From Deltaproteobacteria bacterium (GTDB taxonomy: Bacteria; Desulfobacterota; Binatia; Binatales; Binataceae), in NCBI GenBank assembly GCA_021780225.1, contig JAJXZF010000029.1, forward strand, positions 62,001 to 126,000: a DNA stretch of 64,000 bases, written 5' to 3'. The position numbers were made by a program, and so were the translations under genes. Below the pieces are notes generated by a model. It was not told the DNA's origin. It ran no database searches and was given only the letters and a program-made list of their open reading frames with translations. Below, in pieces: positions 9,502 through 19,265 of this stretch; within the stretch, counting starts at the first letter, position 1; the number at the start of each line of letters is the position of its first letter.

Positions 9502-10116
9502 ATGGCGCGCTATCAACCGCACGACGCCTATTACTGGCGCGCGCGCGAGCGCGGATTGCCGTCGCGCGCCGCGTTCAAGCTCGACGAATTGCTCGCGCGC
9601 CATCGCCTGATCCGTTCCGGCGCGCGCGTTATCGATTTGGGATGCGCGCCCGGAGGATGGTTGGCGGTGCTTGCCGAAGCGGTGGGCGCCCGCGGCCGCG
9701 TGATCGGAATCGACCTTGCGCCGTCGCGAGTCGCGTCGCCCAACGTGATTGCGCTGACCGGCGATCTCAACGATCCGGCGATCCGCGCCGAAGCGCTCGC
9801 GCGTCTCGCCGGTCAAGCCGATCTCATCACCTCCGACCTTTCGCCTAAATTAACCGGAATCGCCGATCGCGATCAGGCGCGCTCGGCCGAATTGCTGTAT
9901 GTCGCGCTCGAATTCGCCCGGACGGCGCTCAGGCCGGGCGGCGCGATGGTGGCGAAGGCGTTTATGGGCGCCGCGTTCGACGAAATCGCGGCGGAATTCC
10001 GCCGGGCGTTCGCGCGCGTTGAACTTACGCGGCCTCGCGCGAGCCGTCCCGGTTCAGCCGAGATCTATCTGGTCGCGACCGGATTTAAGCCTGACCCCCA
10101 TCCGGCCCAAGCGTGA
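9502..10116 (+). CDS. rlmE: RlmE/FtsJ-family 2'-O-ribose methyltransferase
   Basis: A 204-residue SAM-dependent methyltransferase predicted to modify U2552 of 23S rRNA. The SAM motif DLGCAPGGW is at 45-53. The K-D-K-E tetrad of the FtsJ family is complete: K26 (FKLDELL), D112 (TSDLSPKLTG), K152 (VAKAFMG) and E187 (SAEIYLV). The frame extends upstream to 8923, but that part is the antisense of uvrD. The ATG at 9502 starts MARYQPHDAYYWRA, which fits the family's N terminus. It is divergent from uvrD. Conserved tetrad and length make the assignment firm. Confidence 0.92.
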   Translation: MARYQPHDAYYWRARERGLPSRAAFKLDELLARHRLIRSGARVIDLGCAPGGWLAVLAEAVGARGRVIGIDLAPSRVASPNVIALTGDLNDPAIRAEALARLAGQADLITSDLSPKLTGIADRDQARSAELLYVALEFARTALRPGGAMVAKAFMGAAFDEIAAEFRRAFARVELTRPRASRPGSAEIYLVATGFKPDPHPAQA

Positions 10117-10166
10117 TAGAATTGGCAATATCGCCTAACCGCGCATAAGCTCCGGACGAGAACGCG

Positions 10167-10985
10167 ATGCCGACCCGGTTGATAAAGACCCTGGCTTTGA
10201 TCAGCGCGGCTGGTCTGCTCGCTTCGTGTTCGTTGATTTCATGCGTTCGCGACGGCCAAGGTGCGCGCCCTTCGGCTAGCGGCGCGGTGACGGTGCATGT
10301 GGCGCGCGTCGGCTTCGATCAAGATTCGGGATCGCATTATGTGACCTTGATCGATCGGCGCGGGAATCGCGGCCTCGATATCGTCATCGGTCCTGAAGAG
10401 GCGCGGGAGATTGTCTTCGAGCTTCATGGCTTGAAGCCGGAACGGCCGCTTGCCAGCGATCTCCTGCGCACGTTCGTCGAGCGCAGCGGCGTTCATGTCG
10501 AGCGCGTCGAAATCACAGGTCTGCGCGATCAGACCTACTACGCGGCGATCGATCTCGATGGCCAACGCCGGCCGATCGACAGCCGTCCGAGCGACGCGAT
10601 CGCGCTCGCGCTTGGCGTGGGCGCTCCGATTTACGTCGAAGCGTCGCTGATGAGCGCGAAAGCCGGCGCTTCAAATATGAGTCCGGCGGTGGCGCGCGCG
10701 GCCGGCATTGCCGTGCAGGAACTTACTCCGAATCTGGCGGAATACTTTTCGGTATCGCCCGGAAGCGGCGTGGTCGTCGCCGATTTCGACGCCGGACAAG
10801 CGCAATCCGGCTTGCGGCGCGGCGATATTGTCACGGCGGTTGACGGGCGCGCGATCACTTCCACGACCGGCTTTGTCGAGGCGGCTGCGAGCGCCAAACG
10901 CCCGCTGGTGTTGAGCGTCCGTCGCGGCGGCCGTGCAATATCGATCACGCTTGCGCCCGCGGCGACCGCCGCCTCGGCGCACTAA
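10167..10985 (+). CDS. Lipoprotein with bifunctional-nuclease (BFN/DUF151) and PDZ domains
   Basis: A 272-residue protein. The N terminus is a lipoprotein signal with lipobox LLASC and C21 as the likely lipidation site. Residues about 40-165 match the BFN/DUF151 fold: VTLIDRRGNRGLDIVIGPEEAREI, RPLASDLLRTFVERSG and the hallmark IDSRPSDAIALALGVGAPIYV. A glycine-rich linker leads to a PDZ domain at about 190-265 (GVVVADFDAGQAQSGLRRGD, then IVTAVDGRAI). BFN proteins are usually cytoplasmic and linked to nuclease activity or to gene regulation, so an exported, PDZ-linked form is unusual. Whether nuclease activity remains is unknown. It lies 50 bases after rlmE. Confidence 0.8.
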   Translation: MPTRLIKTLALISAAGLLASCSLISCVRDGQGARPSASGAVTVHVARVGFDQDSGSHYVTLIDRRGNRGLDIVIGPEEAREIVFELHGLKPERPLASDLLRTFVERSGVHVERVEITGLRDQTYYAAIDLDGQRRPIDSRPSDAIALALGVGAPIYVEASLMSAKAGASNMSPAVARAAGIAVQELTPNLAEYFSVSPGSGVVVADFDAGQAQSGLRRGDIVTAVDGRAITSTTGFVEAAASAKRPLVLSVRRGGRAISITLAPAATAASAH

Positions 10986-11016: not shown

Positions 11017-12738
11017 TCAATGCGCCGCTGCGCGGCGAATCAGTAGGCTCCGGATGAATCGCGGATCGATCGGGCGTGCGGGATCGATATCGCCCAAATC
11101 CTCCTCCAGCAGGTTAAGGCATGAATTCACATAGTCCGCGGAGCGCCGCCGCAGATCTTCGCCAAGCCGCTCCTTCATCATTCCGTCGATCCGTATGCGG
11201 AAAGCGTCGCTCAGGCGCGCCGGGCGGGATTCCAGCGACAACATCGCACGGCGCGCCTCTTCGAGCCGGTCCGCCTCCAACGGCTCGATCGCCATCCGGC
11301 CGTCGATTAGGGCGCGCGCGAACGCGGTCAGCAAAATCTGGCTCAAGCGAATCTCGTAGCCGGCGATCTGCGCGCGAAACGCCGCTCCCGCGATATCCAG
11401 GCCGAACAGTGCGCGGAAAAGGTCGGGAGCCGCGTCAAGTTGTTCGAGCATCGCGTAGCCGAGATGGATGTCGCGCATCGACCGGAAATCGCGCATCGCG
11501 ACCGCGCCCTTGCGATCGAGAGCGCCATGGAATCGCGGCTGGCGTTCGAGGAATCCCCCCAGCGCTTCGCGATAAGGCGAATCCAGATACGGAATCTCGC
11601 GTCCGGACTCGGGCGTTAATCCGAAACGCCGCACGATCGATTCGGCGCGCGTGCGCAAATCGATCGTCAAGCTTACGCCGAGCCGGAACAGCAACTGCAG
11701 ATGCGTGGCGCGCAGATGCTCGATCGCGGTTTTCAGGTCGCCGCCCGCCAGATGCTCAAGGCCGAGATTCAGATAGTTGTGCGTCATCTCGACGGCGAGG
11801 CGCACCGCTTCAAGGTCGCCGAAATCCACCGAGCGCGCGACCAGCACCTGATTCGTCACGATCGCCATCTCGCTGCGCAGTTGGCGCCGTCCCTGCGCCG
11901 CGAATCCCGCCGTCAGCGCGGCGTTGAAGAGCGAATTTTCGGAGTCGGGCAGGGCGGGCGCCAGGTCCGGCGAAATCAGGTCCGTTTCTTCAAGCGCCTC
12001 GCGAATCGGCGGCGCGTACTGCGCCCGCAACGCCGTGAAATTCTGGGGATTCAAGTAGGCGAACACGCCCTGCGCGTCGAAATAATCCGGAAAACCCCGG
12101 TCGGCCAGGCGCGCGCTGCGGAATTGATACGCCTGCTCTTCCAGTTCCGCCTCGACGCCCCAGTAAATCTCATCCATCAATGCGGTGAAATAATTGTAGT
12201 CGCGCTCGAACGACTCTTCGATAAATTCCAGCAGATGGGCGTGAATCGAATCGTGGCGGATGAATTCGATCAGGTAATGCTCGTCGAATTGCACGAAGCG
12301 GTCCGACGGCGAGTCGGGCGAATCCTGCGGATCGGTCAGGCGATGGACGCGGATATATTGCCGCAGCAGCAGCGAAACCAGCTCCAGATCCAGCTCCATC
12401 AGGCCGTCGGCCAGCCGCTTGCGGCCCGCGTCGGCCATCGCCTCGATCCACTCGCGCATCCGCCCGAGGTTCGGCCGGTCCTTGTCCCAGCAATCGAGAT
12501 CGAAGAGCCATCGGACCTGCTCCGGCGCGGAAAGGCCGAGCAGATCGCCGGCGTCGGCCGAGCCAATCTCTTTCAGCGTGTAGAAGAGCGTTTCGGGCGC
12601 GAACGATTGCACCAATCGTTCGGCCTCCGGCGCCGATAAAATCAGGTCGCGCTTCTGACGCGCCGGCAATCCATAGAGAAACTCGAGTTTCTCCTGGAAG
12701 GGCAAATGCAAAAATTCTTCCTGCCTCGAATCAGGCAT
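11017..12738 (-). CDS. DUF6178-like conserved protein
   Basis: A 573-residue mostly alpha-helical soluble protein with no signal peptide or membrane segment. The N-terminal third carries helical repeats with alternating LLGLSAPEQVRWLFDLDCW and LDLELVSLLLRQYIRV segments, reminiscent of MgtE N-domain or FliG-type repeats. The overall layout recalls DUF6178, which has no established function. I make this family call from memory of the repeat pattern, so the exact family number needs a profile search. It is convergent with the BFN-PDZ gene (31 bases apart) and divergent from thiD. Confidence 0.6.
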   Translation of the reverse strand: MPDSRQEEFLHLPFQEKLEFLYGLPARQKRDLILSAPEAERLVQSFAPETLFYTLKEIGSADAGDLLGLSAPEQVRWLFDLDCWDKDRPNLGRMREWIEAMADAGRKRLADGLMELDLELVSLLLRQYIRVHRLTDPQDSPDSPSDRFVQFDEHYLIEFIRHDSIHAHLLEFIEESFERDYNYFTALMDEIYWGVEAELEEQAYQFRSARLADRGFPDYFDAQGVFAYLNPQNFTALRAQYAPPIREALEETDLISPDLAPALPDSENSLFNAALTAGFAAQGRRQLRSEMAIVTNQVLVARSVDFGDLEAVRLAVEMTHNYLNLGLEHLAGGDLKTAIEHLRATHLQLLFRLGVSLTIDLRTRAESIVRRFGLTPESGREIPYLDSPYREALGGFLERQPRFHGALDRKGAVAMRDFRSMRDIHLGYAMLEQLDAAPDLFRALFGLDIAGAAFRAQIAGYEIRLSQILLTAFARALIDGRMAIEPLEADRLEEARRAMLSLESRPARLSDAFRIRIDGMMKERLGEDLRRRSADYVNSCLNLLEEDLGDIDPARPIDPRFIRSLLIRRAAAH

Positions 12739-13718: not shown

Positions 13719-14168
13719 CTACTCAATCAACTCTTTCAAGGCGGCGCGGAAATTGTGGCTGCGCTCGGCGCCGCCGCCGAGCTTGATCAGCGCGTAACGC
13801 TCGTCGGCGTCGAGCCGCGACCATTCGCCGGCGCCGATCGTCACGCCCGCCGCGCGCGCGTTCTCGATGAGACGGGCGGGCGGGTCGGCGGGCGGGTCCG
13901 CTGCCCGGATTTCTTCGGCCGGCAACGGCTTGGTCGCGCCGGCGTCGCGCGCGGCGATCGCGCCGGCGAGAAATTCGCACAGGGCCGCGCGCTCCTCGTC
14001 GGCGCTCGCCGGCAGATGGCATACCGCGGCGCGTTCATGATGCGCCAGGGCCTGCCATTGCTTGAGGCTGATTTTGACTCCCGCCCGATCGAGCTTGCGC
14101 CGCACCGCCATCGGCACACAGGCGAGACTCTGATGCATTTCATCCTCGAATCCGAAGCGGCGAATCAT
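13719..14168 (-). CDS. NarM-like nitrate reductase associated protein
   Basis: A 149-residue soluble protein. It matches the nitrate reductase associated family best known from cyanobacterial NarM: the FGFEDEMHQSLACVPMAVRRKLD opening, an internal repeat (KISLKQWQALAHHERAAVCHLP and VTIGAGEWSRLDADERYALIKL) and the ending SHNFRAALKEL. In cyanobacteria NarM is needed for active molybdenum nitrate reductase. No nitrate reductase is present here. Instead it is divergent from fdsG, a gene of a molybdenum formate dehydrogenase, so a role in maturing that enzyme is a reasonable inference. The family match is from recognition, not a search. Confidence 0.8.
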   Translation of the reverse strand: MIRRFGFEDEMHQSLACVPMAVRRKLDRAGVKISLKQWQALAHHERAAVCHLPASADEERAALCEFLAGAIAARDAGATKPLPAEEIRAADPPADPPARLIENARAAGVTIGAGEWSRLDADERYALIKLGGGAERSHNFRAALKELIE

Positions 14169-16448: not shown

Positions 16449-19265
16449 GTGCACGCAATCGACGATCGGGATTTCGGCGCTCCGGCGCGCGAGTCGGCGC
16501 AGTCTGCAACGCTGGCGATCGACGGCAGGGAAATTACCGTTCCCGCCGGCACGGCGCTGATCCGCGCGGCTGCGCTGGCCGGCGTCTCGATTCCTAAACT
16601 CTGCGCCACCGACTCGCTCGAACCGTTCGGCTCGTGCCGGCTCTGCCTGGTCGAGATCGACGGACGCAAGGGTTATCCCGCGTCGTGCACCACGCCGGCC
16701 GAATCCGGCATGAAGGTCCGCACGCAATCCGAGGCGCTCGGCAAGCTCCGCCGGAACGTGATGGAGCTTTACCTGACGGACCATCCGCTCGATCCGTTCG
16801 AGTGCAAGGCCGGCGGCGCCTGCGAGTTGCATCGGATGGCGGCCGAGGCCGGATTGCGCGAAGTGCGTTATCCGCGCGGCGGCGCCAACCATCTGGATTT
16901 GCAAGCCGACGATTCCAATCCATATTTCACCTTCGATCCGACGCGCTGCATCTTGTGCTCACGATGCGTGCGCGCGTGCGACGATATCCAGGGCACGTTC
17001 GCTCTGACGATCGAGGGCCGGGGCTTCGCGTCGCAGATGACGCCCGGACAGCACGAGCATTATCTCGATTCGGAATGCGTTTCGTGCGGCGCCTGCGTGC
17101 AGGCCTGTCCGACTGACGCGCTGATGGAAAAGACCGTGCTCGAAGGCGGCTCGGCCGACCGCGCAATCGTGACCACCTGCGGCTATTGCGGCGTGGGATG
17201 CTCGTTCAAGGCGGAACTGCGCGGCGACCGTATCGTGCGGATGGTTCCGAACAAGAACGGATTGCCGAATCACGGCCATTCGTGCGTCAAAGGCCGTTTC
17301 GCCTGGGGCTACGCGACGCATCCCGACCGCGTGCGGCGGCCGATGATCCGCAGGCGCATTGCCGATCCGTGGCGCGAGGTTTCGTGGAACGAAGCGCTCG
17401 CTTACGCCGCGGCCGAACTGAAACGCGTGCAAAAACAATACGGACGCGGCGCGGTGGGCGGAATCACGTCGTCGCGCTGCACCAACGAAGAAGCGTACCT
17501 CGTGCAGAAACTGGTGCGCGCGGGCTTCGGCAACAACAACGTCGACACCTGCGCGCGGGTCTGCCATTCGCCGACCGGCTACGGCCTCAAGACGGCGTTT
17601 GGCACGCCGGCAGGCACGCAGGATTTCGATTCGATCAATCAGGCCGACGTCGTCATGGTGATCGGCGCGAATCCCACCGAGGGCCATCCGGTGTTCGCGT
17701 CGCTCATGAAGCGGCGGCTGCGCGCGGGCGCGCGGCTGATTGTGATCGACCCGCGCGCGATCGAGCTGGTGCGGATGCCGCATGTCGCGGCCGATTATTT
17801 CCTGCAACTCACGCCGGGAACCAACGTTGCGGTCCTTAATGCGCTGGCGCACACGATCGTCGCGGAAGGCCTCGTGAACGAGGCGTTTGTCGCCGCGCGC
17901 GGCGAGCCGCATGAGTACGCCCGCTGGCGCGAATTCATTCTCGCGGAGCGCAATTCGCCCGAGGCGGCCGAATCGATCACGGGCGTGCCGGCGGACCAGA
18001 TTCGCGGCGCGGCGCGGCTCTACGCCAAGGGCCCGAACTCCGCGATCTACTATGGCCTCGGCGTGACCGAGCATGCGCAGGGCAGCACGGCGGTGCTCGC
18101 GATGGCGAACCTCGCGATGGCGGCCGGGATGCTCGGCCGCGAGGGCGTCGGCGTGAATCCGCTGCGCGGCCAGAACAACGTGCAGGGATCCAACGACGTT
18201 GGCTCCTTTCCGCATGAGCTGACGGGCTATCGCCACGTTTCCGATCCCGCGCTGCGCGCGCAATTTGAAAAGGCGTGGGGCGTCACGCTCGATCCGGAGC
18301 CGGGGCTTCGTATTCCCAACATGTTCGACGCCGCGCTCGACGGCAGTTTCAAGGGCCTGTATGTCGAAGGCGAGGATATCGCCCAGTCGGATCCGAATTC
18401 CCAACATGTCGCGGCGGCGCTTTCAGCGATGGAGATCGTGATCGTTCAGGACATCTTCCTGAATGAGACCTCGAAATACGCCCATGTCTTTTTGCCGGGT
18501 TCATCCTTCCTTGAGAAAAATGGCACGTTCACCAATGCCGAGCGGCGCATTTCGCCGGTGCGCAAAGCGATGGCGCCGTTGGCCGGCAAGGAGGATTGGG
18601 AGGTAACCTGCGCGCTGGCGGAGGCGCTGGGCTATCCGATGCGATATCGCCATCCGTCGGAAATCATGGACGAGATTGCGCGCCTGACTCCCACTTTCGC
18701 CGGCGTCAGCTATGAAAAGCTCGACCGGCTGGGATCGGTTCAATGGCCGTGCAACGAAGCGGCGCCGGCGGGCACGCCGGTGATGCACGTTGGCGAGTTT
18801 GTCCGCGGCCGCGGACGGTTTTTGCCGACCGCGTATGTTCCCACGCCTGAAAAGACCGGGCCGCGCTTTCCGTTGATCCTGACCACCGGCCGAATTTTGA
18901 CGCAGTACAATGTCGGCACCCAGACGCGCCGCACCGGCAACGTCGCGTGGCATCCCGAGGACCGTCTGGAAATCCATCCGCATGACGCCGAGCAGCGCGG
19001 CGTTCGCGACGGCGATTGGGTCGAAGTCGCCAGCCGCGCCGGCGCGATCGTGCTGCGCGCTACGATCACCGATCGGGTCGCGCCGGGCGTCGTCTATACC
19101 ACGTTTCATCATCCTGAGACGGGTGCGAACGTCGTGACGACCGAAAATTCGGACTGGGCTACCAATTGCCCCGAATACAAGGTCACCGCCGTTCAGGTGA
19201 TGCCGACGCCACGCCGGCCGGAGCGTTTACCCGCCGATCGCGTAATTCACACGGCCGCGTCCTAA
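16449..19265 (+). CDS. fdsA: NAD-dependent formate dehydrogenase alpha subunit FdsA
   Basis: A 938-residue molybdopterin subunit that oxidises formate to CO2. It opens with a NuoG-like [2Fe-2S] domain (cysteines in LCATDSLEPFGSCRLC and ASCTTP), then a DHPLDPFEC/GGACELH region and two [4Fe-4S] motifs (CILCSRCVRACD and CVSCGACVQACP). The catalytic domain has its own cluster motif beginning CGYCGVGC. The predicted Mo ligand is Cys372 with His373 (ARVCHSPTG), so it is a cysteine and not a selenocysteine form. The start is GTG at 16449. fdsD is not directly downstream, which is unusual. Confidence 0.94.
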   Translation: MHAIDDRDFGAPARESAQSATLAIDGREITVPAGTALIRAAALAGVSIPKLCATDSLEPFGSCRLCLVEIDGRKGYPASCTTPAESGMKVRTQSEALGKLRRNVMELYLTDHPLDPFECKAGGACELHRMAAEAGLREVRYPRGGANHLDLQADDSNPYFTFDPTRCILCSRCVRACDDIQGTFALTIEGRGFASQMTPGQHEHYLDSECVSCGACVQACPTDALMEKTVLEGGSADRAIVTTCGYCGVGCSFKAELRGDRIVRMVPNKNGLPNHGHSCVKGRFAWGYATHPDRVRRPMIRRRIADPWREVSWNEALAYAAAELKRVQKQYGRGAVGGITSSRCTNEEAYLVQKLVRAGFGNNNVDTCARVCHSPTGYGLKTAFGTPAGTQDFDSINQADVVMVIGANPTEGHPVFASLMKRRLRAGARLIVIDPRAIELVRMPHVAADYFLQLTPGTNVAVLNALAHTIVAEGLVNEAFVAARGEPHEYARWREFILAERNSPEAAESITGVPADQIRGAARLYAKGPNSAIYYGLGVTEHAQGSTAVLAMANLAMAAGMLGREGVGVNPLRGQNNVQGSNDVGSFPHELTGYRHVSDPALRAQFEKAWGVTLDPEPGLRIPNMFDAALDGSFKGLYVEGEDIAQSDPNSQHVAAALSAMEIVIVQDIFLNETSKYAHVFLPGSSFLEKNGTFTNAERRISPVRKAMAPLAGKEDWEVTCALAEALGYPMRYRHPSEIMDEIARLTPTFAGVSYEKLDRLGSVQWPCNEAAPAGTPVMHVGEFVRGRGRFLPTAYVPTPEKTGPRFPLILTTGRILTQYNVGTQTRRTGNVAWHPEDRLEIHPHDAEQRGVRDGDWVEVASRAGAIVLRATITDRVAPGVVYTTFHHPETGANVVTTENSDWATNCPEYKVTAVQVMPTPRRPERLPADRVIHTAAS

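Follow-up and report, generated by a model that had tools for sequence, protein, structure and literature searches.

The window, a 64,000-nucleotide stretch of DNA from an uncultured soil bacterium of the Binatota belonging to the same family as Candidatus Binatus (Binataceae), carries on its forward strand a gene at 10167-10985 that starts with ATG and encodes 272 amino acids plus stop. The product was predicted to be a lipoprotein in which a BFN/DUF151 domain is joined to a PDZ domain. Its signal peptide and lipobox LASC occupy 10167-10229, with the codon for Cys21 at 10227-10229; the BFN domain (residues 39-173), delimited by Pfam and by superposition on TM0160 of Thermotoga maritima, lies at 10281-10685; and the HtrA-type PDZ domain (residues 178-263), delimited by Pfam PDZ_2 and structure comparison, at 10698-10955. 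An rlmE/FtsJ-type rRNA methyltransferase gene (9502-10116; Pfam FtsJ, E 1.7e-47) is situated 50 nt upstream on the same strand. The record DLMJ01000006.1 of Candidatus Binatus soli UBA7539 was also found to contain a BFN-PDZ gene.

The N terminus of the window protein displays the features of a bacterial lipoprotein, namely a positively charged n-region (R4 and K7), a hydrophobic core, and a lipobox ending in Cys. Residues 1-21 end in GLLASC, with LASC at 18-21 preceded by a hydrophobic stretch, and a helix at 5-22 was predicted in the structural model; a second candidate lipobox, LISC, ends at Cys26. The lipobox pattern was present in 32 of the 33 BFN-PDZ proteins of the family, the remaining one (L011) ending in LPAC, and the export proposed in the preliminary description is supported at the level of sequence. 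A hydrophobic stretch before the BFN domain was seen in every distinct exported-type sequence (76 of 76), the highest mean hydropathy over 12 residues being at least 1.73 in each, with a median of 2.57. The median for cytosolic-type sequences was 0.58 (n = 27, nine further rows with fewer than 20 residues before the domain being left out), and the cytosolic-type protein L001 reached 1.77, but upstream of its own likely start. Elsewhere in the class and phylum, outside the family, many BFN-PDZ proteins had an ordinary signal and no lipobox Cys. In E. coli, sorting by the Lol system depends on whether Asp follows the lipobox Cys, and lipoproteins that have no Asp there go to the outer membrane. 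Asp was absent after every one of the 42 lipobox Cys residues found; if the E. coli rule holds here, these lipoproteins would be sorted to the outer membrane, and the window lipoprotein may be placed there too.

Pfam assigned BFN_dom to residues 60-165 (106.7 bits, cut-off 27; E 7.7e-31) and PDZ_2 to residues 180-261 (29.8 bits, cut-off 27; E 7.6e-7), with PDZ_6 falling just under its cut-off (26.1 bits against 27). Among 46 aligned relatives, BFN_dom was matched in all and PDZ_2 in 44. An AlphaFold model built from the 46-row alignment (mean pLDDT 85.1, pTM 0.56) consisted of two confident, well-folded domains and a weak linker at 166-171. A Foldseek search with this model returned TM0160 at the top (E 4e-12), followed by HtrA proteases and MamP. 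In VIA-align comparisons, residues 39-173 superimposed on TM0160 (1vjl) with Z 19.0 and rmsd 2.2 over 135 residues, and residues of about 169-272 on MamP (Z 13.7, rmsd 2.9, 98 residues) and DegQ (Z 13.2, rmsd 2.7, 94 residues); the match to DegP gave Z 12.3 and rmsd 2.2 over 90 residues. These domain matches far exceed chance, and both the BFN domain and the C-terminal PDZ domain of the preliminary description were confirmed. No trypsin-like protease domain was matched by Pfam in the window protein, which thus does not qualify as an HtrA protease, and its NCBIfam protease matches all began at residue 148 or beyond, lay almost wholly within the PDZ domain, and scored far under the cut-offs.

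The BFN domain shares its fold with TM0160 (1vjl, 1sj5; PF02577), with 33% identity over 135 residues including Arg93-Pro94 and Asp138-x-Arg-Pro-Ser-Asp143 in window numbering. The window protein differs from TM0160 in its predicted export and lipid anchor, in the added PDZ domain, and in having Ala-Ser in place of Thr57-His58. Like the plant BBD and plastid UVR-DUF151 proteins (OmBBD, AtBBD1/2, UVR2-4), it joins BFN to a partner-binding domain, but both the partner domain and the compartment are different, and AtBBD1/2 were reported to be active as nucleases (PMC7249048). With HtrA/DegP/DegQ it shares the kind of PDZ domain and the predicted compartment, but not the protease domain. MamP is, as the window protein would be, a non-protease envelope protein with an HtrA-like PDZ domain. 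MamP has cytochrome modules, which the window protein lacks. A second BFN protein of the host genome (contig C33, L001), 43% identical over the matched stretch, has neither signal nor PDZ domain, retains Thr-His, and falls in a separate clade, in line with the contrast to plain, cytoplasmic BFN proteins drawn at the outset. No paper treating DUF151 and PDZ together was found in the literature searched, and the architecture may be listed in other libraries or domain databases; as far as the texts were accessible, "bifunctional nuclease", "PDZ domain" and bacteria were co-mentioned only by a tall fescue proteomics paper. Two further candidates, PMC12457691 and PMC5020093, were dropped as DUF151 papers, their accessible parts concerning DUF1515 and DUF1510.

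By both sequence and structure, the BFN PDZ domain is of the HtrA kind, and one of its strands often has the xxG[ILMV]xVQ-like pattern seen in HtrA PDZ domains. Derivation from HtrA PDZ2 had been suggested by the higher scores of the second PDZ domain in most HtrA matches; this idea was dropped, since that first set had been found through a PDZ peptide pattern and was therefore biased. Among 31 HtrA proteins chosen by TIGR02037, PDZ2 outscored PDZ1 in just 18, and in a PDZ tree built on few columns and with rough support, PDZ1 and PDZ2 each formed a supported clade with the BFN PDZ domains outside both. The host genome was shown to possess two full-length DegP/Q genes (510.4 and 459.4 bits), and at least one HtrA gene was found in each of the 38 genomes searched, the host's included; potential partners thus exist, but their co-occurrence is uninformative. 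The reading frames of 93 BFN loci, 60 of which were longer than 6 kb, were searched with a profile built on these 31 HtrA proteins. Besides the BFN proteins themselves the profile gave a single match, so that an HtrA-like gene lies near the BFN gene in one of these 60 loci (L224). There, a trypsin-PDZ gene of 346 aa, at 9552-10589 of the locus and in the same orientation as the BFN-PDZ gene, is separated from it by about 4 kb; the profile detected no HtrA-like gene in L214 (10.7 kb), the other locus of that family.

A search for this domain order across genomes, as had been proposed, demonstrated that the fusion recurs. Within the family, whose set of 41 genomes contains some incomplete ones, the full BFN-PDZ protein was found in 33 genomes including the host's own; an exported BFN lipoprotein without PDZ was found in three (G019, G021, and G032), and in the remaining five no exported BFN was found, the cytosolic kind alone being detected. 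Across the class (147 genomes, among them a Candidatus Binatus genome), 91 genomes matched at E 1e-53 or better; as five of these matches end before or inside the PDZ domain, the fusion is present in at least 86 of 147, some of the 86 being fragments. In a sample of the phylum it was present in at least 37 of 395 genomes. This distribution indicated that the BFN-PDZ fusion is old, widespread, and conserved, and no accident of the window. At the same E 1e-53 threshold, which divergent BFN-PDZ proteins could escape, no match was obtained in 198 genomes of the phylum of a Nitrospirae-named record or in 199 of the phylum of a Phycisphaerales-named record; these empty results are no proof of absence. 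In the phylum family f89, only exported-type BFN proteins were seen among the matches listed (E 1e-20; L220, L221, and L222), two copies being in G327 and one in G284, and a third genome of that family, G347, gave one weak BFN match.

In a tree of 120 BFN domains (112 of them different), a supported branch (96/82) separated most exported proteins from the cytosolic-type ones. The exceptions were eight exported sequences of other class members (families f2 and f12, plus two records), which clustered with the cytosolic-type group, and a single cytosolic-type row on the exported side. This split suggested that exported BFN proteins are for the most part an old lineage of their own, possibly of multiple origin. 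The lipoproteins without a PDZ domain, three in all, were placed as sister to all other family members; as that group is nested among PDZ-bearing proteins, loss of the PDZ domain is the simpler reading. Taken together with the five genomes in which no exported BFN was found, these cases indicated that both the protein and its PDZ domain can be lost. The genes of the PDZ-less lipoproteins (L078, L079, and L080) still lie behind rlmE, and the proteins have a short, variable tail after the BFN domain.

The gene immediately preceding BFN, in the same orientation, is rlmE in 34 of the 36 family loci, and the spacing between the two (-4 to 441 nt) depends on the start codons chosen; of the two exceptions, one starts at a contig end and the other has rlmE 3.8 kb upstream. 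The window's rlmE and BFN-PDZ genes are probably carried on the same transcript. Among the five genomes in which no exported BFN was found, four have rlmE followed by other sequence, and rlmE was not found in the fifth. Among the matches listed, the BFN gene also has UvrD/PcrA, DUF6178, and thiD genes in its neighbourhood in many family loci. In the window, the DUF6178 family gene (E 6e-131), which neighbours BFN-PDZ in many family genomes among the matches listed, is encoded at 11017-12738 on the reverse strand. Also on the reverse strand, a gene at 13719-14168 for a Nitr_red_assoc protein (PF09655, E 1.9e-34) lies between thiD and a NuoF-like subunit gene, and the latter is followed by a large formate-dehydrogenase-like gene at 16449-19265 that was recognised by eye. 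Outside the family, 23 of 32 loci were usable (nine having lost the BFN gene in the greedy choice of reading frames), and a Pfam scan of 22 neighbouring reading frames revealed a PlsB-like acyltransferase at two loci, GemA-like genes at three, UbiD at three, and UPF0102, CBS-ACT, LysR, and others once each. A conserved neighbour as a functional clue outside the family was thus rejected, no general partner having emerged among the 22. The GemA-like short gene lies just upstream of exported BFN-PDZ on the same strand in L211, L212, and L213 (family f23). The UbiD-family gene lies directly downstream in the class members L072, L074, and L076, whose BFN domains cluster with the cytosolic-type ones. 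In E. coli, the gene for RrmJ is co-transcribed with ftsH. RrmJ itself has been described as a heat shock protein (PMC3942483), and on the strength of this analogy a link of the rlmE-BFN pair to stress is possible.

The structure of TM0160 had suggested a putative triad composed of Asp115 and His58 of one monomer and Thr57 of the other (PMC7249048). We infer a shift of 12 residues between the TM0160 chain and the native numbering, which puts Thr57, His58, and Asp115 on the T, the H, and the D of the motif. In the alignment, the corresponding residues of the window protein are Ala96, Ser97 (codons at 10452-10457), and Asp143, and the protein accordingly lacks the full putative BFN nuclease triad. 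The motif SRPSDAIALAL, described at first as intact, is indeed present at residues 139-149 (10581-10613), but it contains just one of the three residues proposed to be catalytic in TM0160, Asp143 being the counterpart of Asp115, and the other two are replaced. Among distinct fetched rows, Thr-His-Asp was kept in all 36 cytosolic-type rows; for BFN-PDZ rows the figures were 38 of 40 outside the family and 14 of 33 within it, and none of the three PDZ-less exported BFN rows had it. The His was replaced in 19 of the 33, seven of which have also lost the Thr, as in the window protein, and the Asp was retained in every row counted. In the window's genus the His is replaced in each of the six BFN-PDZ proteins, one of which retains the Thr. 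Mapped on a 39-row tree, the Thr-His label required six changes, three of which were forced by well-supported branches.

Meanwhile, twenty positions including Asp143 have the same residue in at least 90% of the rows across 76 exported and 36 cytosolic-type sequences. The dN/dS values (Nei-Gojobori, five overlapping genus pairs), rough because the domains are short, were 0.07-0.22 for BFN and 0.21-0.30 for PDZ, with the linker above the domain values in most of the five pairs. Both domains are thus under purifying selection. Considering that the core positions are kept and dN/dS is low despite the lost His, the window protein looks maintained for something besides the proposed chemistry. Since Thr57 and His58 of the proposed triad correspond to Ala96 and Ser97, the idea of a nuclease is weakened; judging from these residues, the window protein is probably nuclease-dead and probably binds proteins rather than cutting DNA. 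The triad is a structure-based proposal, so the loss of its residues is evidence and not proof. The ancestral exported BFN protein may have been an enzyme, given that nearly all BFN-PDZ rows outside the family retain Thr-His.

We tentatively favour, at a confidence short of even, a reading in which a lipid-anchored BFN dimer presents PDZ domains and acts as a membrane-tethered adaptor or holding factor beside HtrA in envelope quality control. The lipid anchor would tether the protein to the outer membrane, the BFN domains would pair into a dimer holding two PDZ arms in the periplasm, and the arms would capture the C termini of proteins, either on behalf of the DegP/DegQ (HtrA) proteases or alongside them. 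TM0160 and Rv1829 have been reported to dimerise through DUF151 (PMC7249048), and by analogy the window protein may do so too. Peptide binding by its PDZ domain and a partnership with HtrA are presumed, and a protease-linked role is plausible in view of the HtrA-kind PDZ domain and the presence of HtrA in the genome. The nearest precedent for an adaptor role appears to be in plastids, where the DUF151-UVR proteins UVR2-UVR4 were enriched on the trapped chaperone CLPC1 and were treated by the authors as candidate substrates, adaptors, or regulators (PMC8889267). A further indication of a possible link between BFN proteins and the envelope comes from Actinobacteria, in which rv1829, a BFN gene, is part of a conserved operon whose gene context predicts a role in cell-envelope biogenesis (PMC3317503). 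Several points count against the adaptor reading, however. The HtrA-like neighbour occurs at only one of 60 loci, rlmE is a ribosome gene whose tie to envelope stress would rest on analogy, and the proteins enriched on trapped CLPC1 could be its substrates instead of adaptors. In addition, the exported BFN and its PDZ domain can be lost in family genomes, and the retention of Thr-His in 38 of 40 outside-family BFN-PDZ rows means that the ancestor may have been an enzyme.

Somewhat unlikely, in our estimation, is a peptide-binding scaffold or periplasmic chaperone that works independently of HtrA, for example in outer-membrane biogenesis, and grips the C termini of its clients by the PDZ domain. 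The PDZ fold and groove pattern are in place, protease genes are almost absent from the gene context, and the nearest structures include MamP, which has a PDZ domain but is no protease; yet the PDZ domain is about equally close to the HtrA PDZ domains and to MamP, and we know of no client. Less likely still is an envelope nuclease in which the BFN domain would cleave DNA or RNA in the periplasm or outside the cell while the PDZ domain would position the enzyme. Arabidopsis BBD1 and BBD2, which are DUF151 proteins, displayed DNase and RNase activity as MBP fusions (PMC7249048), and the strongly conserved core including Asp143 and the Thr-His pair of most outside-family rows would agree with such a role. 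That activity, however, was reported as metal-independent, was observed with full-length proteins fused to MBP, and was not traced to catalytic residues in the available part of that report (PMC7249048); the titles and abstract openings covered, for part of the literature, reported no nuclease activity of a bacterial BFN protein, and the window protein has neither Thr nor His, the latter being replaced in more than half of the family rows.

A ligand sensor, in which the BFN barrel would bind a small molecule and the PDZ domain would signal to a DegS/RseP-like membrane protease cascade, seems distinctly improbable. The host genome does encode a trypsin-PDZ protein of DegS size and an RseP-like protein, the latter recognised by eye, and the BFN-only protein Rv1829 of M. 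tuberculosis was said to confer carbon monoxide resistance (PMC7249048). Against this, no pathway neighbour was found except the trypsin-PDZ gene near L224. We know of no ligand. That the exported BFN is a degenerating relic on its way out of the Binataceae is very improbable indeed, for although proposed catalytic residues have been lost, the copies in three genomes have no PDZ domain, and five genomes yielded no exported BFN, both domains are under purifying selection, the frame is intact, and the position behind rlmE is kept in 34 of 36 loci.

The BFN/DUF151 domain is conserved and widespread, and its name "nuclease" rests on plant proteins, as far as the accessible parts of the literature examined show. 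The exported BFN proteins, which keep the fold but in many cases lack either one or two members of the proposed catalytic triad, constitute a natural experiment, and their PDZ partner domain renders the function testable by peptide and pull-down assays. If exported BFN proteins have a selected function without nuclease activity, the family name and the assumed role would need revision. A broader proposal, which we consider unlikely, is that the BFN fold is not primarily a nuclease but a dimerising adaptor module of ancient origin that serves protein quality control, coupled to ClpC in plastids through UVR and to HtrA in the periplasm of the Binatota and their phylum through PDZ. If this were true, the proteins of the Binataceae would display the bare, non-catalytic function of the fold.
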